From NCBI GenBank assembly GCA_025782575.1, contig JALGYY010000044.1, positions 60,973 to 124,972 of the forward strand: a DNA stretch of 64,000 nucleotides. Direction: 5' to 3'. Position 1 is the first letter of the stretch. Each line of letters opens with the position of its first letter. Of the stretch, positions 11,407-29,094 are shown piece after piece. Under the pieces are notes generated by a model. That model did not search any database. It was not told the origin of the DNA and worked only from the letters and a program-made list of their open reading frames with translations. Source of the stretch: a bacterium (GTDB lineage: Bacteria > Orphanbacterota > Orphanbacteria > Orphanbacterales > Orphanbacteraceae). The position numbers and the translations under genes were made by a program.

Positions 11407-11479
11407 CGGGCCCGGCAGGCTTCGAACCCGCAACCCCCGGTTTTGGAGACCGGTGCTCTACCAATTGAGCCACAGGCCC
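11407..11479 (-). tRNA. tRNA-Trp (CCA anticodon)
   Basis: On the minus strand a full cloverleaf is seen: acceptor GGGCCTG/CGGGCCC, D arm with GCTC...GAGC, anticodon stem CCGGT with loop containing CCA, and T arm GGGTTCGAA. The 3' CCA is not encoded. Its place between tuf and secE is the common bacterial position. Confidence 0.97.
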
Positions 11480-11543
11480 TTGTTCTCAGCCATTGGCGGC
11501 GCGACCTCCAGGGTCGCGCCGCGTGAATTCTATACTCTCTCCG

Positions 11544-12749
11544 TTATTCGAGAATCTCGGCGATCACACCGGCGCCGACCGTACGGCCACCTTCTCGAAT
11601 CGCGAACCGAAGCGATTTCTCCATAGCGATCGGAGTGTGGAGCTCCACGTTCATCTCGACGTTATCGCCGGGCATCACCATCTCGCGTCCCTCGGGGAGG
11701 GTAAGCGAACCGGTTACATCCGTAGTACGGAAGAAGAACTGCGGCCGATAACCGTTGAAGAACGGTGTGTGACGGCCCCCTTCGTCCTTCGTCAAGATGT
11801 AGACCTCGCCGCGGAACTTGGTATGGGGCTTCACAGAGCCGGGAGCCGCGAGAACCATGCCGCGCTCCAGATCATCCTTGTCCATACCCCGGAGCAGCAG
11901 GCCGATGTTGTCACCTGCCTGGGCGCTGTCCATCAGCTTCCGGAACATCTCAACACCGGTGACCGTTGTCTGTACGATGTCTCTCAGGCCGACACGCTCC
12001 ACCTTGTCACCAACCTTGATCGTTCCACGTTCCACACGGCCGGTACCTACAGTACCGCGACCGGTGATCGAGAAGACGTCCTCTACAGCGAGCAGGAACG
12101 GCTTGTCGTTTTCCCGAGCCGGCTCAGGAATGAACGTATCGATCGCTTCCATCAGCTCCGTGATGCACTTCGAAGCCTCTGGATCGGTCGGGTTATTCAT
12201 TGCCAGCAGTGCGGCACCGCGAATAACGGGAGTGTCGTCACCGGGAAAATCATACGCGCTGAGGAGCTCACGAACCTCGAGCTCGACGAGATCGACAAGC
12301 TCAGGATCATCAACGGTGTCGACTTTGTTCAGGAAAACGACGATATGGGGCACGTTCACCTGGCGGGCGAGGAGCACATGCTCACGAGTCTGCGGCATCG
12401 GGCCGTCAGAAGCGCTCACCACCAGAATTGCGCCGTCCATCTGCGCCGCACCGGTAACCATGTTCTTCACATAGTCAGCATGCCCGGGGCAATCGATGTG
12501 CGCATAATGTCGCAAATCCGACTCGTACTCGACGTGCGAGGTCGCAATGGTCAGGATTTTGGTGGCATCGCGCCGACCCTGTGATTCAGAAGCTTTCGCG
12601 ACCTCGTCATAGGTGATCGCGGTAGCCAATCCCTTGGCTCCCTGAACCGCGGTAATCGCGGACGTGAGCGTCGTCTTGCCATGATCGACGTGGCCGATCG
12701 TTCCCACATTCACATGTGGCTTCGTGCGTTCGAACTTCTCCTTTGCCAT
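11544..12749 (-). CDS. tuf: Translation elongation factor Tu with divergent switch I
   Basis: EF-Tu delivers aminoacyl-tRNA to the ribosome as a GTPase. The P-loop GHVDHGKT (residues 19-26), DCPGHAD with catalytic His90, NKVD, and normal domains 2 and 3 ending in [11 protein letters not shown] are all present (401 aa). Switch I is odd: the usual KARGITI is replaced by [13 protein letters not shown] (residues 56-68), and this stretch is about 6 residues longer than in E. coli. Thr67, equivalent to the Mg-binding Thr of switch I, is kept. The G5 motif reads GAAL instead of GSAL. I recall a similar switch I in planctomycete EF-Tu. It follows the tRNA cluster; no rpmG lies between tuf and secE. 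Confidence 0.96.
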
Positions 12750-12809
12750 TGGAACCTAACTCCTCCTAGCCATCTCGGCCTCGGCAAAACGCGTCAGGCG
12801 GTGGAATGA

Positions 12810-12885
12810 TGGAGCCCACGACCCGACTTGAACGGGTGACCTATTGCTTACCATGCAATTGCTCTACCAACTGAGCTACGTGGGC
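12810..12885 (-). tRNA. tRNA-Thr (GGT anticodon)
   Basis: The minus strand gives a complete cloverleaf with acceptor GCCCACG/CGTGGGC, anticodon loop ATGGTAA (GGT), T arm with GTTCAAG, and an encoded CCA. It is the last tRNA before tuf, in the same position as E. coli thrT. Confidence 0.97.
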
Positions 12886-12957
12886 ATCCCCATGACACTA
12901 CCGGTCATGTACCGCCAGGACGCCTGATTGCGATTCATCCTCTATCTCAAGTAAAAC

Positions 12958-13034
12958 TGGAGCGGGAAACGGGACTCGAACCCGCGACCCTCAGCTTGGA
13001 AGGCTGATGCTCTAGCCAACTGAGCTATTCCCGC
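12958..13034 (-). tRNA. tRNA-Gly (TCC anticodon)
   Basis: Acceptor GCGGGAA pairs with TTCCCGC, the anticodon stem TCAGC/GCTGA carries loop CTTCCAA (TCC), and the T arm has GGTTCGAGTCC. The 3' CCA is encoded. The order Thr-Tyr-Gly-Thr-tuf matches the E. coli thrU-tyrU-glyT-thrT-tufB unit. Confidence 0.97.
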
Positions 13035-13162
13035 GCCCGGCGAGCCTCTCGGCCTTGGCTTCGCGACTCGCCTATTTATCCTTCCAGACTCCGGAAGGTA
13101 TGGGACCGATGGCGGCTCGAAGGCCGGCCGGCGATCCCGCAGTTAACCTGTTCGATCAAATC

Positions 13163-13244
13163 TGGGGAGGGGAGGATTCGAACCTCCGAAGGCTTCGCCG
13201 ACAGATTTACAGTCTGTTCCCTTTGGCCACTCGGGAACCTCCCC
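13163..13244 (-). tRNA. tRNA-Tyr (GTA anticodon)
   Basis: This is a class II tRNA with a long variable arm. Acceptor GGGGAGG pairs with CCTCCCC, and the anticodon stem CAGA/TCTG encloses a loop containing GTA. The variable stem is followed by a T arm GGAGGTTCGAATCCTCC. CCA is not encoded. Confidence 0.97.
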
Positions 13245-13306
13245 TGAAGTTCCATCCTCTTTTTTCTCACCGCCTTGCGGGCGTCTCTCGCAGCAGATTC
13301 AGGCTG

Positions 13307-13382
13307 TGGAGCTGGCGAGAGGACTTGAACCCCCAACAACCTCATTACAAGTGAGGTGCTCTACCAATTGAGCTACGCCAGC
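13307..13382 (-). tRNA. tRNA-Thr (TGT anticodon)
   Basis: Acceptor GCTGGCG/CGCCAGC, anticodon stem CCTCA/TGAGG with loop CTTGTAA (TGT), a normal T arm and an encoded CCA are all visible. It is the first gene of the long minus-strand transcript. Confidence 0.97.
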
Positions 13383-17975: not shown

Positions 17976-19250
17976 CTAGCGCGCGGCCAATGTCCTGGCG
18001 CTGACCGGATGGATACCGGTCGCCATCGCAGAGAGTTCTTCCAGTGTCCTTTGCGATACGCCGCCGCCAACGCCGTCGGCGTCTTTGTGGCAGCTATAGC
18101 AGGCGAAGTCGAGTGTGACTCTCGCGAGACCGGTCGCGGGATCCTCGAGAACTGTGGTCGATGCGGCCACAATTCCCATTCCCTCTTCTTTATCAACCGC
18201 AGCAGGATTAATCGCCCAGATGTGACTCCTGACGTCCCCTTGATGGATCGTAATTGCGAGGGCGCTCTTGGCCGACTTGGGCATATGACAGTCAACACAG
18301 GCAGGGCCGCCGAAATCGGCACTCAGGTGCGCGACATCGCCACCGTCCAGCGTGTAATCTTCCGCCGCATGACAATCGGTGCAGCTCGTTTTGACGCCGA
18401 TACCCATAGCGACGTCATCGAACATGACCGACGCATGGGGATCGTGGCATTCGCTGCACCCAGGTCCGTTGCCGATTGCGTGAGGCGAGTGGAGCCACTC
18501 ATCATACTGTTCATGATGCTCGATGAATCCACCTGACGCGGCGATACGGTTCAGAGCATCGCGGGTATGGCAGCGACCACACTGCTCAGACGAATTGTCC
18601 ACTTCCAGTGCGTTCAGATCGGGTGCCAGCACATGCAGGCTTCCCCTGCCGTGGCACTCTTCGCAGTGAATGCCGCCGGCGAAGAACGTGCCGTACATGC
18701 CCGGCATGCCATCCTGATTGTCCGTCAGATCACCGTCCGTTGTCGGATCGCTATCCGCTACCCAACCCGTTGTATGGCATTTGCCGCAATCATAAGGCTT
18801 GGTGTTCGGCGGATCAGTCAAGTGATAGTCCGACCATAGATCCTGTTCGAAGTTGTACTGGTTATCTTCGAGACCGGTGATGATCCAGCCATCCTGGTTG
18901 ATGAAGCGCATCTTCCACGCGTATCCACCGATCGTGTAGCTGATATCGGCCCATGTGAATCCGGCGGGTGGTTCGACCGCATCGTTCGGATACTCTGAAA
19001 AGCCGGGGAAGGAGCCTGTCGGTGCCTCACCCAGAATTTTCGTCAGTTTGAATGGGTGGCCCGATTCAACCCACATGTCATATTTTGCCTCGTGACATTC
19101 TTTGCAGGTCTCGGATCCGACGAATGCCAGGACCGGTATTTCCGGGTCGGGGCAGACAATCGGGTCGTCATCATCATCCCCGCAACCGGGCAAGATGAGG
19201 AAGGCCATTGCGAGGGTTAAAGCGTACTTGGCGATTCGGCTCACGGTCAT
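17976..19250 (-). CDS. Octaheme c-type cytochrome lipoprotein
   Basis: The 424-aa protein starts with a lipoprotein signal (LILPGC, Cys23), followed by a GDDDDD acidic spacer. Eight CxxCH haem-binding motifs follow (CKECH, CGKCH, CEECH, CGRCH, CSECH, CTDCH, CVDCH, CYSCH). It should be exported, lipidated and loaded with eight c-type haems in the periplasm or on the outer membrane. The spacing resembles NapC/NrfA-like multihaem electron-transfer proteins, but I cannot assign a substrate. The strong GGAGG before ATG 19250 supports the start. It is divergent from the PAS/sigma-54 activator gene and near two other multihaem genes, so a shared respiratory role is likely. Confidence 0.92.
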   Translation of the reverse strand: MTVSRIAKYALTLAMAFLILPGCGDDDDDPIVCPDPEIPVLAFVGSETCKECHEAKYDMWVESGHPFKLTKILGEAPTGSFPGFSEYPNDAVEPPAGFTWADISYTIGGYAWKMRFINQDGWIITGLEDNQYNFEQDLWSDYHLTDPPNTKPYDCGKCHTTGWVADSDPTTDGDLTDNQDGMPGMYGTFFAGGIHCEECHGRGSLHVLAPDLNALEVDNSSEQCGRCHTRDALNRIAASGGFIEHHEQYDEWLHSPHAIGNGPGCSECHDPHASVMFDDVAMGIGVKTSCTDCHAAEDYTLDGGDVAHLSADFGGPACVDCHMPKSAKSALAITIHQGDVRSHIWAINPAAVDKEEGMGIVAASTTVLEDPATGLARVTLDFACYSCHKDADGVGGGVSQRTLEELSAMATGIHPVSARTLAAR

Positions 19251-19557: not shown

Positions 19558-20940
19558 ATGAAGGACAATCAAGACATACGCTTTGCTCGAGTCACCCCCC
19601 CCGATTTCTCCCTGGAGCACCATTTCAAGGACATTGTCGATTCACTGCCTGACGGCCTGATCACTGTCGACAAAGAATGGCGCGTCACCAGCCTGAACCG
19701 GGCGGCGGAAAAGCTTCTCGGCGTCTCCGAGCGCAAGTCGATCGGACGTTTCTGCTACAAGGTAATTCGGGGCGAGCATTGCCGGAGTGACTGCCCGCTT
19801 GCCATCACTCTTGAAACCCAGAGAAATGTGCGCGACTTCGAGGTGCCCACCTCCGACCAGAAGGGGGGGCAGCGCACTCTATCCGTAAGCACCGCCGTCC
19901 TCCGCGATTCCGACGGCACACCGATCGGCGGGGTCATCTCTCTACGTGACATGACCCTCATGAACCGGCTCAGAGATGACCTCCTGGGGAAGACCGGGTT
20001 TCACGGTCTCATCGGGAAGAGCCGGGCCATGCGGGAGCTGTTCGATCTCATCCGCGAAGTGGCCGACTGCGATTCGAATGTGCTGGTCGAGGGGGAATCA
20101 GGCACCGGCAAGGAGCTGGTTGCGAAAGCGATCCAGCGGCTCTCTTCCCGCCGGGACAATCCGTACGTTCGGGTGAACTGCGCCGCATTTGTCGAAACCC
20201 TGCTTGAGTCGGAGCTTTTCGGCCATGTACGCGGTGCGTTTACAGGTGCTCACCTGGACAGGCCCGGGCGATTCGAGATGGCCGACAAAGGGACGATATT
20301 CCTCGATGAGATTGGCGAATCGAGCCCGGCAGTGCAGATGAAACTGCTACGAGTACTGCAGGAGCGGGAACTGGAGCGTGTGGGGGGGAACGAGACGATT
20401 CAGGTGGATGTGCGTGTTATCTCCGCTACAAACATCCCGCTCGAGAGCCTGGTCAGTGAGCGTCGTTTCCGGGACGATCTCTATTATCGGTTGAACGTGA
20501 TCCCAATTACGATCCGCCCGCTACGGGAACGGACAGATGACATCATTCCGCTGACCGAGTTTTTTCTGGAGCGGCGACGGCTCATCGTCTCCAAAGATCT
20601 CACCATATCGCCGGGTGCGATGGCGCTTTTAATGGAGTACCGGTGGCCGGGGAACGTGCGGGAACTGGAGAACGCGCTCGAACATGCATCGGTCCGCTGC
20701 CAGGGCGTGATCATTCAAAAACGCCACCTCCCGAATACCATCAGGAAGTCGAAGAAGGGGGGGGGCGAAGGACCGGCCGAAGATGCCGGCGCCAGGCGAG
20801 TGCTCGAAGCGCTTCGGGCCGCCCGATGGAACAGAGCCGAGGCGGCCCGCCGGCTCGGGATCAGCAGGACCACACTCTGGCGTCAGATGTCGAAATACGG
20901 CTTGATCGACGACTCCAAGACGATTGGATATCATTCCTAA
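19558..20940 (+). CDS. PAS-domain sigma-54-dependent transcriptional activator
   Basis: This bacterial enhancer-binding protein has an N-terminal PAS domain (about residues 20-135), a sigma-54 AAA+ domain (about 148-380) and a Fis-type HTH (about 415-450). Visible motifs are Walker A GESGTGKE (179-186), GAFTGA, which contacts sigma-54, and FLDEIGE (Walker B). The HTH reads [19 protein letters not shown]. The PAS domain carries three cysteines, C66, C75 and C79 (CYKV...EHCRSDCP), which could bind metal, haem or sense redox state. There is no receiver domain, so it senses directly. It sits in the multihaem cytochrome island and is the nearest candidate to drive the -24/-12 promoter at 25338. 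Its stop overlaps the convergent GMC gene by 4 nt. Confidence 0.93.
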
Positions 20941-22963: not shown

Positions 22964-24892
22964 CTAGTCCTCTTCGGCAGGCCGGGCATCCCCCTTCTTC
23001 TCTTTGAGCTTTTCGATCTTTTCGAGGTTGCTCGCCGCCGAAGCCGCCGGATGCTCGACCTTGAACTGCTCCTCGGGCATGCACCCCGTGAGCCAGGACG
23101 GGTTCATCGGGTAGACATTCGGGCTGAACACTGTCGAGTACATATGCCAGACAAGGATCGCCAGGAAAGCAAGCCAGGCCTCGTAATAGTGAATGATGAG
23201 CATCACATCGAGGAAACCCTTCGGAAGCCAGGTGATGGCCAGGTTGTCAAACCAAAGCAGCAGCCCCGTCACTCCCATGATCAATGTACCCCAAACGAGT
23301 GCCCAATACTCAGCCTTCTCGACATAAGAGAAGCGCCTGAATTGTGGGTGATCTTTTGTGATGCCCAGATTGTAGGCGTTCATCTGAATGAACTGCCGGA
23401 AGTCGTTCAAGCTCGGAGCCATGTCCTTTAGGAAAACACGGCCACGCTTCGTAATCAGATAAAGGCCGTGCCAGGCGGATGCCATCAGGAGAATTACTCC
23501 GGCGATGTGGTGCAGGTCTCCGCGAAGGGTATACCCCCCCTCCCAACCGAAGAGCCCTTTGGACCACCAGGAATCATAAAACCGAAGGGAAAAGCCCGTA
23601 ACAACCAGCACAGTGAAGGAAAGGGCGAGGATGAAATGCTGGACCACTTCGTCGCCGTCCATCCTCCGTACCTGCTTCTTGGTGGTCATCACCTTGCGGA
23701 TCTGATGGAGGAGATCGATGAGCCAATGGAGGGCCATACCGCCGATCACAACGAAGATCAGGGTGATATAGATCATACGAACGATCCCTGCGATACCCGT
23801 CTGCATGCCGGCGGAATCCTCGTGTATGCGCGTACTGGCGATTTCCTCTGAAATACTCGGGTGGCAGGTGCCGCATGTGGCTACGAGATTTGCCGGGTTC
23901 ACGGTCGAAGTGGGATCGGTATGGGGCAGGATACGATGGGCACCATGGCAGGAGGCGCAGTTCGCCACCGTCACGTCGCCCGCTTTACTCTTCAACCCGT
24001 GATAGGAATCCTGGTAGGACTGCAGCCGCCCGGTGGGCAGCTCGTACTTTTCATTAAGAGCCGCCGACTCATGACAGGGGGTGCAGGTCGCCTCGGCCAG
24101 GCGGTTCGGACTGACCGGGGAGCGTGGGTCGTCTGTCGGCAGAATGTTGTGCTCGCCGTGACAGCTCGTGCAGATCGGGGAATCCACCTGGCCACGCTTT
24201 GTCAGATCGCCGTGGATCCCCTCCCAGTAATCCTCTTCGATGTACTTGTGGCACTGGCCGCAGGTATTCGGAATATTGAAATGGTTGATCGCCGAGCGAA
24301 CGTCCCCGGGCGAGAGGATCATGTGGGCAGTCCCCTCAGTGGAATGGCAATCATTGCAGGATGCTGCGGAGTAGCGCCCGCCCAACGCCGAGCGGCCGTG
24401 AATGCTGTTTTCGTATACCCGAACCGGATGTTTGAAGCGGATTTTCTGGTCGGTCGTAAACGCATCGTCCTCGTGGCAGAGACCGCAGGTGCTCGGGAGG
24501 TTCAGGGGACTGACCCGTGAGTCTTTGTGATCGACATAGCGGATCGAGTGGTTTCCGTGGCAGTCGGCGCATCCAGGTACCGCATCGTCTTCACCTATCA
24601 CACCCCGTCCATGTTTGACATAGATATCCGCGACATCCTCGTGGCAGGAACCGCAGTCGGCGGGTGGTAAAATGTCTTCGTGGGGGAGCTCATTGATGGA
24701 CGTGTGGCATTCGATGCAGTCGAGGCCGGCGTGGACACTCCCTTCGAGAGCGTCTGACAATTCCATATCGGGATCGTCAGTGGATTCGAAGTGACAGTCT
24801 GTGCAATCCGCGTTCTCGACCTGCGCCGGGGTCGGGGATACTGCAAAGATGAGAGTCAGAAATAAAAATGTGCCCACCAGTCTCGGCTTCAC
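22964..24892 (-). CDS. CbcL-like fusion: 11-haem cytochrome c plus diheme cytochrome b domain
   Basis: After a signal peptide, residues of about 28-350 carry eleven CxxCH motifs (CTDCH, CIECH, CGSCH, CADCH, CGLCH, CNDCH, CGQCH, CTSCH, CTPCH, CASCH, CGTCH). A TM helix and a cytochrome b561/FdnI-like domain of about four TM helices follow (about 360-600), with His in HFILALSF, LHHIAGV/WHGLYLI and IHYYEAW/WHMYSTVF. The design matches CbcL of Geobacter, an inner-membrane menaquinol oxidase feeding periplasmic cytochromes, which as I recall has nine c-haems. I choose GTG 24892, with GGAGG 9 nt upstream, over TTG 24901. It is the first gene of the operon, divergent from the UGA-containing cytochrome operon. 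Confidence 0.9.
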   Translation of the reverse strand: MKPRLVGTFLFLTLIFAVSPTPAQVENADCTDCHFESTDDPDMELSDALEGSVHAGLDCIECHTSINELPHEDILPPADCGSCHEDVADIYVKHGRGVIGEDDAVPGCADCHGNHSIRYVDHKDSRVSPLNLPSTCGLCHEDDAFTTDQKIRFKHPVRVYENSIHGRSALGGRYSAASCNDCHSTEGTAHMILSPGDVRSAINHFNIPNTCGQCHKYIEEDYWEGIHGDLTKRGQVDSPICTSCHGEHNILPTDDPRSPVSPNRLAEATCTPCHESAALNEKYELPTGRLQSYQDSYHGLKSKAGDVTVANCASCHGAHRILPHTDPTSTVNPANLVATCGTCHPSISEEIASTRIHEDSAGMQTGIAGIVRMIYITLIFVVIGGMALHWLIDLLHQIRKVMTTKKQVRRMDGDEVVQHFILALSFTVLVVTGFSLRFYDSWWSKGLFGWEGGYTLRGDLHHIAGVILLMASAWHGLYLITKRGRVFLKDMAPSLNDFRQFIQMNAYNLGITKDHPQFRRFSYVEKAEYWALVWGTLIMGVTGLLLWFDNLAITWLPKGFLDVMLIIHYYEAWLAFLAILVWHMYSTVFSPNVYPMNPSWLTGCMPEEQFKVEHPAASAASNLEKIEKLKEKKGDARPAEED

Positions 24893-25074
24893 GTCAAACA
24901 ACCTCCATAGGACGGCCGCTCGGCCCGCCGGGGATGGCGAGCTCCCGAGTAGTTACTGTGTTTTGTTCGCTCTGCACAATATAGACGCAGATCGAAAAGG
25001 CACAAGCCAGGAGTTATTACCCGATTCAGACTGCAATTCCCGGCCGGCGTGAGCGCACAAGTCCTGACGACGTT

Positions 25075-25199: not shown

Positions 25200-25337
25200 A
25201 CCACACATCCCGGCCTGGCGCGCTATCAACGGGCCGAGTGAGGCTGCAACCGGAAGCGGCCCACTAACTGACAAAGCAACAACCAGTTACAGCGCAGGGG
25301 GGGACTTTTTGGCGGTACTCTCTTCGCTTTTATTGCA

Positions 25338-25353
25338 TGGCACGTGCTATGCA
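25338..25353 (+). promoter_or_regulatory. Sigma-54 (-24/-12) promoter
   Basis: TGGCACGTGCTATGCA matches the consensus TGGCACG-N4-TTGCA at all but one of the fixed positions. The invariant GG and GC are exactly 10 bp apart. Transcription should start near 25363, just before the ribosome-binding site of the TPR gene. Confidence 0.85.
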
Positions 25354-25384
25354 CTTCCGTCTCCGCACGAGGAGAGGGGCCGAG

Positions 25385-25831
25385 ATGAGTGAAATGCTTG
25401 GAAACCGCTACTTCATCGCCAGAGAATTCGAAAAGGCGGTACCTATCCTCGAAACCGCACTGCTGGCCAATCCCGCACTCTCCCGGGTTCGCAAGAAACT
25501 GATCATCAGCTATACGCAGGTGGACCGGATTGATGATGCACTCGATCTGTTTCTCAAGACACTTGAAGACGATCCACGAAGCATCATCGATACCGACCTT
25601 GAAGCGGAAGATTGCCCGTGCCCCCACCTCTGCTCGTCCATCGAGCGCCGCCTCCCCTATCTCAAGGATCCGAGCAGTGCTCTTATTACCCTCGGCATTC
25701 TCGAACTTTTCTGCGATATCGACGCTTCCAGGTCCTACATCAGTGAAGTAACTCAACTCGCTCCCGATGATTCGCGCTCGGCTATGGCGCTTACGCTTTT
25801 GAAAAAGGAGAAACCCGCATGCCGAAACTAG
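25385..25831 (+). CDS. Small TPR-type protein, first gene of the sigma-54 operon
   Basis: The 148-aa soluble protein has TPR-like helices (RYFIAREFEKAVPILETALLANPALSRV and ISYTQVDRIDDALDLFLKTLEDDP) and a Cys-rich turn (CPCPHLC) near residues 76-82. I choose ATG 25385 with GAGGAGAGGGG upstream; the earlier ATG at 25337 lies inside the promoter itself. No signal peptide is visible, so it is cytoplasmic. The last 13 nt overlap the start of the multihaem gene. I do not know its function; a chaperone or maturation factor for the following cytochrome is plausible, and the CxCxxxC turn might bind metal. Confidence 0.75.
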   Translation: MSEMLGNRYFIAREFEKAVPILETALLANPALSRVRKKLIISYTQVDRIDDALDLFLKTLEDDPRSIIDTDLEAEDCPCPHLCSSIERRLPYLKDPSSALITLGILELFCDIDASRSYISEVTQLAPDDSRSAMALTLLKKEKPACRN

Positions 25832-27198
25832 CAAGAATCCGTAACTCCCGAATCATGGTGCCTCTCAGTATGGTGGCGCTCCTGCAGGTGGTTCTCTTCG
25901 TTTTTTTTCTCGGCTGTTCGTCCTCCGATTCGGACGACAATCCGACGGGCCCGATAGACCCGGTAGACCAGAAGAACGGCTGCGAAGAGTGCCACACCAG
26001 CGAAGCGACTCTGATAGCCACCGCATCGCCTGATACATTGCCCCCCGCGGGCAGTTCGGGAGAAGGCTGAGGCGGCGAGGTACCTCAGTTGGAGGTATGG
26101 GAAAAAGTTCTCGTTGGTGATGACTATCTCGACTCATTCCATGGAACGAACATCACTTGCGTCGCCTGCCATGGCGGAGATGATTCGGATTCTCTATCCA
26201 AAGAACAGGCCCACGCAGGGCTCGCCACAGATCCGTCTGCTGGAACAGACGGAGCGTGCGCCACGTGTCACTCCGATGAAAACACAGGCCACTCATCGAG
26301 TCTTCATTTCACCCAGGAAGGTTATTGGACGCGGATCGAGCAGAGAACGGGACTTGACCGATCATCGCCGGATGCGCAGCACATGGTCGACGCAGATTGT
26401 GCCAAATGCCACACGTCATGCGGACAGTGCCATATCAGCCGACCGAACGCCGTAAGGGGCGGCCTTGTGAGCGGCCACATGTTCAAGAACCCGCCCAATC
26501 AGACCGAGAACTGCACCGCATGTCATGGTAGCAGGATCGGCGAGGAGTTCCGCGGGAGCCACGACGGCATTCCGGCGGATGCTCATTATAATATGGGTAT
26601 GAACTGCTTCTCGTGCCATACGGCCGACGAGATTCATGGGACGGGGGAAACGCCCCCTCATCGGTACGATGTGGAGAACGGCCCCAAGTGCGAGACCTGC
26701 CATCCCGATGTTCTGACTGACACCCAGAACAGCCAGCACTCGATCCACACTGATGACGTGCAGTGCCAGGTCTGCCATTCGGTGAGCTATAAGACCTGCT
26801 ACAACTGCCACGTGGGAAGCGGACTGCAGGATCCGTCGCGGCTCGATTTCCGAATCGGGTTGAACTATGAACGGGATGATCTCCATCCCTGGAAGTACAT
26901 CGTGGTTCGCCATATTCCGATCGCGCCCGACAGCTATGAAGAGTACGGCATCGATATGCCGCACTACGCCAGCTTCCCCACCTGGGAAATGGCTACGCCC
27001 CACAATATTCGGAAGAACACACCGCAGAACGAAAGCTGCGGCGCATGCCACGGAAACGAAGATATTTTTCTCACTCCCGCGTACATCGATTCGCTAATTG
27101 CTGAAGGGTTGATGCACACGGAGGAAATCGAAGCGAATGCGGACGTCGTCGTTGAGCAGCTCCCGTCAATGGGATTGCCCACCGCCGGCAGTGAATGA
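25819..27198 (+). CDS. Multihaem cytochrome c lipoprotein with in-frame UGA, probable selenoprotein (ExtKL-like)
   Basis: ATG 25819 has AAAGGAG 8 nt upstream and encodes a lipoprotein signal (FFLGC, Cys33) and the first haem motif CEECH. The frame then meets UGA at codon 84 (26068-26070) and continues open for 375 codons with ten more motifs (CVACH, CATCH, CAKCH, CGQCH, CTACH, CFSCH, CETCH, CQVCH, CYNCH, CGACH). The downstream part alone would lack any export signal and so could not receive haem. The UGA context is SSGEG-U-GGEVPQ. A stem-loop fitting the bacterial SECIS rule follows. Read-through as selenocysteine gives about 459 residues and 11 haems. I recall Geobacter ExtKL as a multihaem selenoprotein beside a rhodanese, as here. 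A nonsense mutation or sequencing error is the alternative. Confidence 0.8.
26071..26097 (+). promoter_or_regulatory. Candidate bacterial SECIS element
   Basis: Ten nt after the UGA, the stem TACCTC/GAGGTA (26081-26086, 26092-26097) closes the 5-nt loop AGTTG. The loop begins 17 nt after the UGA, and its second base is G, as required in the usual bacterial SECIS search model (a G among the first two loop bases, loop 16-37 nt from UGA). The stem is short, and a competing palindrome GAGGTACCTC overlaps it. Confidence 0.55.
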
Positions 27199-27212
27199 CA
27201 AGGAGGTTTGGA

Positions 27213-28232
27213 ATGAATCGGACACGCTTTGCACTGGCGCTGATCGGCGCCCTGGCGATGGTCTTTTTCGTCGGCTGCGGAGACGATGACAACCCGACCG
27301 ATCCGGGAATAACCGTTGACCAGACTGATGCTGTGATCAGCGCCGTAAATTCGTATGTGACGTCGGGCAGTTCACCGGTTACGAAAGCCGATGTGCTCTT
27401 CGCCACCCTGAACGACGGTGACGACGCAAACGATCCATTTGTCCTGAGCGTTCGGAGTGCTGATCACTATGCGCTCGGTCATATCCCCGGCGCCGCGAAC
27501 ATCTCCTGGAAAGAGATCGCTGATCCGGCGAAGCTCGCCACACTTCCGACGGACAGGCAGATCGTCGTGTACTGCTACACCGGCCATACCGGTGCTGTCG
27601 CGACGACCGTGCTGAACTCGCTCGGCTATGATGCCATCAACATGAAGTTCGGCATGTGCGCATGGACGAAGGATCTGGATGTGCGCGTGGCGACCGCTTT
27701 CAGCGAAGCGACTGACGCACACGACTATGCCGTGGAAACCACGATCAACGATCCGGCTGCGTCCTATGACATGCCTGATCTGGATGTCACCGGTTCTACT
27801 GACACCTGGGAGATCGCCCGGGCCGCTGCGGAAGTCTATACTGCCGGAGCCGACGGTCCGACCAAGAAGGCCTCCGACGTATTCGACAACCTGAACGACG
27901 GCGACGATGCGAACAACTGGTTCATCGTGAGCGTCCGGAGCGCCGAGCATTATGCCGGCGGCCACATTCCCGGCGCGATCAACATTCCATGGACAGAGAT
28001 CGGCGACGAGAGTCTTCTGAAGAAGATTCCGGCGGATGCTACTGTCCTCGTTTACTGCTACACCGGTCACACAGGGGGTATCGCGACTACCGCCCTCCGC
28101 ATGATGGGCTATGAAGCCTACAACATGAAGTGGGGCATGGTCTCCTGGACAACTGATCCGGATGTGCGCGCCACTGCCGCATTCAGCGAAGAGATTGACG
28201 CACACGACTATGCGGTGGAGTCCGGAAACTAG
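27213..28232 (+). CDS. Tandem rhodanese-domain lipoprotein (ExtH-like)
   Basis: ATG 27213 follows a perfect AAGGAGG. The 339-aa protein has a lipoprotein signal (FFVGC, Cys22), an acidic spacer (GDDDNPTD), then two rhodanese domains. Each has an active-site loop YCYTGHTG, with catalytic cysteines at about residues 121 and 282, so both may be active in persulfide or selenide-sulfur transfer. The halves repeat one another (NMKFGMCAWT / NMKWGMVSWT; HDYAVE at both ends), showing an internal duplication. It lies 14 nt after the UGA-containing cytochrome gene. A lipoprotein rhodanese beside a multihaem cytochrome is the arrangement of Geobacter ext clusters; a periplasmic chalcogen-transfer role is inferred. 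Confidence 0.92.
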   Translation: MNRTRFALALIGALAMVFFVGCGDDDNPTDPGITVDQTDAVISAVNSYVTSGSSPVTKADVLFATLNDGDDANDPFVLSVRSADHYALGHIPGAANISWKEIADPAKLATLPTDRQIVVYCYTGHTGAVATTVLNSLGYDAINMKFGMCAWTKDLDVRVATAFSEATDAHDYAVETTINDPAASYDMPDLDVTGSTDTWEIARAAAEVYTAGADGPTKKASDVFDNLNDGDDANNWFIVSVRSAEHYAGGHIPGAINIPWTEIGDESLLKKIPADATVLVYCYTGHTGGIATTALRMMGYEAYNMKWGMVSWTTDPDVRATAAFSEEIDAHDYAVESGN

Positions 28233-28248
28233 GATTTGTTAATTGGGG

Positions 28249-28288
28249 GGGAGGGTCGACCCGTCAAGGCGGCCTTCCTTACCCTCCC
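28249..28288. terminator. Putative convergent terminator
   Basis: GGGAGGGT and ACCCTCCC form a perfect 8-bp stem with a 24-nt loop, spanning the 46-bp gap between the rhodanese stop and the convergent ArsC-like gene and overlapping its last codons. Confidence 0.4.
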
Positions 28289-29094
28289 ATCAATCGCTCT
28301 AATCGCCTGACCAGTTCGTCCCTCGTTTTTCGAAACGCATTCAGCCGTGTCTCGGCGTCCCCGTCGACACCCGCCGGATCGGAAAGCCCCCAGTGCAGGC
28401 GACGGGCATTTCCCAGGAATGCCGGACAAACTTCCTCGGCGCATAGCGTGATCACTGCATCGATTGAAGCGGGATCAACATCATCCACGCTTGTTGACTG
28501 ATATCGTGAGATGTCGATGCCCGATTCAAGCAGGACGGCGATCGCCTCCGGCCTGACCGCTGACGGGCGAGAACCCGCGGAGGCGACGTCGATCCCATCC
28601 GGCGCAATCGACCGGGCGATCCCCTCGGCAATTTGACTCCTGGCGGAGTTGGCCACACAGAGAAAGAGAAAGCGCCGCGGTCCGAGGGCCCGAAGGACCG
28701 CAGCTTCCAGGGCCCATTTTTCGTACTCACCTTCAGGTCCGGTCGGTGAAATCTCCACGCCGTCGATCCGGAGCCGATTGCCTGGCAAGGGTATTCCCTC
28801 TGGGGGGTTTCCAGAGGGGAGCGGCTCCCCGGCTGAAGACCGGATCACACGAACCAGATCGATCTCCATGTCGGAACAGAGTTTAGCTACAATCTCCCGT
28901 AGAAGACCTTCTGTGTCTCCGCTCGACTCCTGGCCGGGATCAGAAATAAGCTCGATTTGCACTGGGCTATCTTTCTCGATGAAGAATGGCGCGAGAATGC
29001 CGCTAGTGGCCGAATTCCGGCCTTCAATGACCCTGCTTGGTGTACCAGGGAATTCCCGATCCCACCCGGGATAGGTATTCTCCCTAATGACCAT
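28279..29094 (-). CDS. ArsC-type low-molecular-weight phosphatase-fold protein with extra N-terminal domain
   Basis: The C-terminal 135 residues or so match thioredoxin-coupled arsenate reductases of the LMW-PTP fold. They have the P-loop FLCVANSARSQIAEGIAR (CX5R), SAGSRPSAVRPEAI, and the LCAEEVCP region with redox-type cysteines before LHWGLSDPAG. The N-terminal 140 residues or so are unusual. Part (PVQIELISDPG ... LRIDGVEISP) resembles a thioredoxin-like fold but has no CxxC, so it would be structural. ATG 29094 has AGGGG 5 nt upstream. It converges on the rhodanese operon. Arsenate reduction is the family function, but a role in selenium or sulfur detoxification is possible from context. 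Confidence 0.82.
   Translation of the reverse strand: MVIRENTYPGWDREFPGTPSRVIEGRNSATSGILAPFFIEKDSPVQIELISDPGQESSGDTEGLLREIVAKLCSDMEIDLVRVIRSSAGEPLPSGNPPEGIPLPGNRLRIDGVEISPTGPEGEYEKWALEAAVLRALGPRRFLFLCVANSARSQIAEGIARSIAPDGIDVASAGSRPSAVRPEAIAVLLESGIDISRYQSTSVDDVDPASIDAVITLCAEEVCPAFLGNARRLHWGLSDPAGVDGDAETRLNAFRKTRDELVRRLERLMGG

Follow-up and report, generated by a model that had tools for sequence, protein, structure and literature searches.

Can a UGA codon lying within the gene for a c-type cytochrome be read as selenocysteine, and if so, what would such a residue do in a multiheme protein? The question is raised by a gene on the forward strand (25819-27198) of the window, by which we mean the whole 64,000-nucleotide stretch of bacterial DNA analyzed here.

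Gene layout

Within its frame this gene has just one UGA before the terminator, at codon 84 (26068-26070); the terminator is itself UGA. Read through codon 84, it would encode an 11-heme c-type cytochrome of 459 amino acids. The part before the UGA has a Shine-Dalgarno sequence (GGAG, 25807-25810), a lipoprotein-type signal ending in LGC (Cys33) and only one CxxCH, heme motif 1 (CEECH, residues 55-59, 25981-25995); the part after it carries the other ten CxxCH motifs and no signal peptide. The initial annotation had described one frame cut only at codon 84, with 11 heme motifs split one and ten and with the ribosome-binding site and lipoprotein signal confined to the first part, and translation of the window bears this out.

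The UGA might instead be a real stop, produced by point mutation or sequencing error, with the downstream part dead or separately started. In this genome UGA does act as a normal stop codon outside this site, the gene's own terminator being one example, and a mechanical listing of open reading frames divides the gene at codon 84. Against this reading, an export signal is missing from the downstream part, and the heme motifs are conserved: all 11 sites are apparently kept among 29 aligned members, with two of them deviating from CxxCH in some members through a wider spacing between the cysteines in the alignments.

Conservation of the UGA codon

A scan of a genome collection identified two relatives, one from Candidatus Eisenbacteria (52% identity) and one from a second bacterium (46%), both with the UGA in GEG-U-GGE and with flanking DNA nearly identical to that of the window. 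Whole-genome searches added four homologues from 47 genomes of the Eisenbacteria group and nine from 395 genomes of the class to which the 46% relative belongs, and a domain-wide sample of 386 genomes contributed 14 more. The lowest identity to the window protein among the homologues is approximately 32%. The gene was absent from all other genomes examined in the window's own phylum (seven genomes, including its own).

The UGA occupies the identical codon in all 30 homologues that possess the surrounding segment (the window counted), which come from many bacterial families, and none of the 30 has Cys at this position. The motif around it is G-E/x-G-U-G-G across homologues and GEG-U-GGEVPQ in the window. 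An alignment of homologues had been proposed as a check on the selenocysteine reading, with Cys or UGA expected at this site, and the alignment returned UGA alone. Because 30 loci hold UGA at the matching place, its presence at codon 84 is not due to chance, and the same sharing of the codon across families argues against a mutated or misread stop. As no Cys homologue exists among these sequences, a selenol role for the residue rests on its invariance.

The SECIS hairpin

Behind the UGA lies a putative bacterial SECIS hairpin, GUACCUC-AGUUG-GAGGUAU (26080-26098, forward strand), with a stem of 7 bp, an AGUUG loop at 26087-26091, a predicted energy of -8.7 kcal/mol and 16 nt between the UGA and the apical loop. 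A published bSECIS model (PMC13188914) specifies a loop of 3-9 nt, a stem of 4-16 bp, a G among the first two nucleotides of the loop, a UGA-to-loop distance of 16-37 nt and a minimum free energy of at most -7.5 kcal/mol; the window hairpin satisfies its criteria, four out of four. A search of Rfam for a known SECIS family gave no match, which is uninformative for so short an element.

Covariation supports the hairpin. Among 26 ungapped sequences, compensatory changes occur at five of the seven pairs and 88.5% of cells are paired, compared with only 34-54% when control positions are slid along the alignment; none of 500 shuffles equaled the observed covariation score, and none the observed fraction of paired cells, in a test that ignores kinship between the sequences. 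Relative to synonymous recodings that preserve each gene's own codon usage, the hairpin is more stable across 30 sequences (mean z -2.08, relatedness uncorrected), with the window hairpin alone reaching z -1.4 (p 0.056). The stem is also enriched in the rare codons CCT, TTG and GCA, which these genes otherwise avoid: CCT accounts for 17 of 37 Pro codons in the stem versus 6% of Pro in the remaining gene sequence, and TTG for 19 of 26 Leu codons versus 15%. In profiling of codon identity the SECIS codons fall in the upper range and not at the maximum, making the synonymous-recoding test the stronger of the two, and at three loci (L037, L038 and L071) the stem forms only when shifted. With compensatory changes preserving a hairpin behind a shared UGA, the possibility of a genuine stop or pseudogene is negligible.

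Selenocysteine machinery

The genome from which the window derives (4.88 Mb, 95% complete) encodes SelA (524.6 bits, cut-off 268), SelB (378.6 bits, cut-off 242) and SelD (379 bits, cut-off 125), together with a tRNA-Sec recognized both by Rfam (72.7 bits, gathering threshold 47) and by ARAGORN (SeC, anticodon tca). The full set of selA, selB, selC and selD, for which a search had been recommended, is therefore present. The SelD of this genome is a selenoprotein too, with an in-frame UGA in FATKAGUAAKHPR (contig C46:271946-272869; L018:1468-2529).

Among tested genomes, 17 of 18 carriers of the cytochrome gene yielded a SelB match, compared with 35 of 63 non-carriers (p about 0.0015). Within the best-sampled class the counts were 10 of 10 carriers versus 9 of 25 non-carriers (p about 0.0005), neither comparison being corrected for phylogeny. 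The sole SelB-negative carrier, G025, may have an incomplete genome.

Decoding of the UGA as Trp, or generic near-cognate readthrough, would likewise yield a full-length protein. Plain readthrough, however, places no selection on UGA itself across 30 lineages, and it leaves without a part the complete SelA, SelB, SelD and tRNA-Sec set, the Sec-type SelD, the co-occurrence with SelB and a bSECIS element with the required spacing and loop; we consider it extremely unlikely. The proposal of the initial annotation that the UGA specifies selenocysteine is thus upheld by the conserved codon, the machinery and the SECIS-type hairpin with its compensatory changes. Because 30 relatives share the position of the UGA and an RNA hairpin is conserved downstream of it, codon 84 is almost certainly selenocysteine, which on sequence evidence would be inserted by SelB and tRNA-Sec under the direction of the hairpin at 26080-26098; protein data are lacking.

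Gene neighborhood

The gene that follows (27213-28232, forward strand) encodes a tandem rhodanese lipoprotein with two CYTGHTG active-site loops. It has its own Shine-Dalgarno sequence (AGGAGG, 27201-27206), and its best start lies 14 bp past the end of the selenoprotein gene. On the upstream side, a gene for a TPR protein (25337-25831, forward strand) that is not conserved at other loci overlaps the start of the selenoprotein gene. Given this overlap at the 5′ end and the 14 bp spacing at the 3′ end, the three genes are likely to share a transcript, as judged from their arrangement. The rhodanese is the conserved partner: it is directly adjacent at all 26 selenocysteine loci with enough flanking sequence (the window and 25 of the 29 others). 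The four remaining loci stop at contig edges, one of them showing an apparent rhodanese C-terminus at the edge.

Two other neighbors recur more sporadically. A multiheme cytochrome that carries a fused b561-type membrane domain (PF01292; 22964-24901, reverse strand) has homologues near the selenoprotein gene at five loci (L067, L102, L104, L109 and L112), and a PAS and sigma-54 activator (19558-20940, forward strand), which may sense the substrate of the module, has homologues near it at four (L057, L099, L104 and L106). At L100, L102, L103 and L104 the gene order is selenocysteine cytochrome, rhodanese, a barrel-like protein of about 400 amino acids and an 11-12-heme cytochrome, followed at L102 and L104 by a multiheme cytochrome b561 homologous to that at 22964-24901 in the window. 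The barrel assignment is inferred from sequence, the match to OmpA being weak, and a set of rhodanese, outer membrane barrel and multiheme cytochrome was not found together in the window.

Relatives lacking the selenocysteine segment

Two genomes of one family (G753 and G468) have homologues without the whole selenocysteine segment, at loci L110:6250-7449 (reverse strand) and L086 with L095. Heme site 10 (CYNCH, residues 327-331) and His310 are missing from both homologues as well. Neither has a rhodanese neighbor in the readable flanks, the G468 gene being split over two contigs. Because all three are absent from both relatives, selenocysteine, heme 10 and the rhodanese seem to have been gained or lost together, and this may have been one event.

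Since the relatives without selenocysteine lack the entire segment and no Cys homologue is found, the family would be hidden from searches that rely on Sec/Cys pairs. It is nevertheless well supported and widespread, and annotation is likely to report each of its genes as a pair of broken fragments.

Comparison with known multiheme selenoproteins

Geobacter ExtKL had been suggested as an analogous protein, and the analogy holds in kind and in gene company. ExtKL (NF040886) is likewise an exported multiheme cytochrome with one predicted selenocysteine, and its extHIJKL cluster likewise has a rhodanese lipoprotein, a beta-barrel and further cytochromes nearby (PMC5877670, PMC6148476), with published ties of the ext cluster to selenite/tellurite and metal reduction (PMC5877670, PMC6148476). 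The likeness does not extend to membership of the ExtKL family. In ExtKL five hemes precede the UGA and only a small remainder follows (PMC6148476), so that its selenocysteine follows all of its hemes, whereas that of the 11-heme window family follows heme 1 and precedes the other ten. The ExtKL model NF040886 gave no match in three members searched up to E 10 or in 16 members at E 0.001. A true ExtKL orthologue working in a Geobacter-type extracellular electron conduit would explain the pairing of a multiheme selenoprotein with a rhodanese and the beta-barrel and cytochromes that some loci add, as in extHIJKL (PMC6148476, PMC5877670), and the rhodanese at L108 does match ExtH (NF040901; 1.1e-19, under the cut-off), this divergent locus being the only one to do so. 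With the model unmatched and the hemes distributed differently around the UGA, we judge orthology very unlikely.

Other members of the selenite/tellurite reduction operon give weak matches, all below cut-off: ExtN (NF040967) with L030 at 1.2e-11 over the region after the selenocysteine, and ExtM (NF040943) in 10 of 16 members. Neither ExtN nor ExtM is in the selenoprotein list of a 2026 inventory of 119 families (PMC13188914), whose three multiheme-related selenoproteins are ExtKL, a GSU2204-type protein and the octaheme protein TIGR04315, the last appearing as a GenBank-annotated Sec form (WP_331457571.1; PMC13188914). None of these three was matched above cut-off. For TIGR04315 (cut-off 375 bits), weak matches were seen in 5 of 16 members, L030 scoring only 19.6 bits. 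We found no curated model for the window family and no entry for it in the inventory (PMC13188914). "Hypothetical protein DG" (NF049953), which has a GUxG motif (PMC13188914), was considered for its likeness to GUGG and set aside, as there was no NCBIfam match.

The family shares with bacterial selenoproteins in general the UGA, the bSECIS and the full machinery, but differs from the usual ones in having no Cys homologue and no CxxU or UxxC motif. What is new among the known selenocysteine-containing multiheme cytochromes is the site of the selenocysteine together with the near-obligate rhodanese partner. We are highly confident that the window protein is a selenoprotein of an undescribed, widespread family with a rhodanese partner, in the absence of protein or expression data.

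Structure and heme ligation

An AlphaFold2 model from 29 mature sequences, which contains no hemes, reached a pLDDT of 82 and a pTM of 0.81, falling to a pLDDT of only about 54 near the selenocysteine loop; a first model from 16 full-length sequences was discarded (pLDDT 46). With VIA-align, the best match was the octaheme tetrathionate reductase of Shewanella (1sp3; Z 8.8, 254 aligned residues, 4.3 Å, model residues 57-407), followed by hydroxylamine oxidoreductase (Z 4.3), and 1sp3 was also the top match in a profile search of PDB sequences (E 1.6e-8). Foldseek alone found no PDB match to the model, so the likeness to octaheme tetrathionate reductase as the nearest solved structure is only suggestive, and proteins rich in CxxCH are prone to draw weak matches to one another. 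The two would have a multiheme core in common, with the window family differing in its 11 hemes and in an extra N-terminal part that holds heme 1 and the selenocysteine.

Ten histidines outside the heme motifs are conserved for the 11 hemes, and there is no conserved Met, Lys or other Cys, so one heme may be open or otherwise ligated. Sec84 is the only other invariant residue of ligand type. It lies in a glycine-rich loop between hemes 1 and 2, in no known redox motif. The relatives without selenocysteine have 10 hemes and nine such histidines, a count that is likewise one short, which argues mildly against Sec84 as a heme ligand.

Proposed function

The family probably comprises periplasmic or outer membrane multiheme selenoenzymes that reduce sulfane-sulfur or selenium species with the help of the rhodanese, the reaction being inferred. 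The protein would be a reductase of the multiheme, octaheme tetrathionate reductase kind. Electrons from quinol would pass through the multiheme cytochrome b (b561) and other cytochromes to the selenocysteine cytochrome, while the active-site Cys of the tandem rhodanese would bear sulfane sulfur, or else selenium or tellurium, in a persulfide-like adduct. The selenolate of Sec84, on its flexible glycine-rich loop, could then attack this adduct, after which the heme chain would reset Sec84 and the reduced product would be released. We offer the mechanism as a whole tentatively, as an inference that falls somewhat short of probable; its substrate and activity are untested.

Alternatively, Sec84 could play a structural part, relay electrons or trap a metal, without any catalytic role, in a protein that is an extracellular electron conduit and no enzyme. 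The flexible loop without a known redox motif would suit such a role, as would the electron-transfer cytochromes among many of the neighbors. A non-catalytic residue is harder to reconcile with a selenocysteine that is invariant and never replaced by Cys, with the constancy of the rhodanese neighbor, with the joint absence of selenocysteine, heme 10 and rhodanese from two relatives, and with a closest solved relative that is a catalytic octaheme enzyme; we regard it as rather unlikely without setting it aside. Doubtful, to a slightly greater degree, is a bolder reading, by which the family is a novel class of enzyme: selenocysteine would act directly at an open multiheme active site, or be an axial ligand there, and a dedicated rhodanese partner would hand it sulfur or selenium.

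Anaerobic reductive respiration is the more common setting for multiheme domains of the b561 type and for selenocysteine systems. On these general grounds, the b561-type neighbor and the selenocysteine system of this genome speak against the opposite direction of flow, in which the rhodanese and the selenocysteine cytochrome would oxidize sulfide or thiosulfate and pass the electrons to cytochromes. Such cytochromes are reversible in principle, and TsdA enzymes are reported to operate in both directions (PMC6879331). Sulfur oxidation is improbable while retaining some weight, and we prefer the reductive assignment.

The locus ties selenocysteine to multiheme respiration with a near-obligate rhodanese partner. 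The role of selenocysteine in cytochromes, a question that has stood since ExtKL, becomes testable, with many species available for the purpose.

Other features of the window

A further multiheme lipoprotein is encoded at 17976-19250 (reverse strand). It matches the UshA-like (seleno)protein model NF041198 weakly (38.9 bits, cut-off 275), probably only through the heme region. At 28279-29094 (reverse strand), an arsenate-reductase-like low-molecular-weight phosphatase domain is preceded by an additional N-terminal region of some 140 residues. Five clustered tRNA genes at 11407-13382 (reverse strand) adjoin a gene for EF-Tu.
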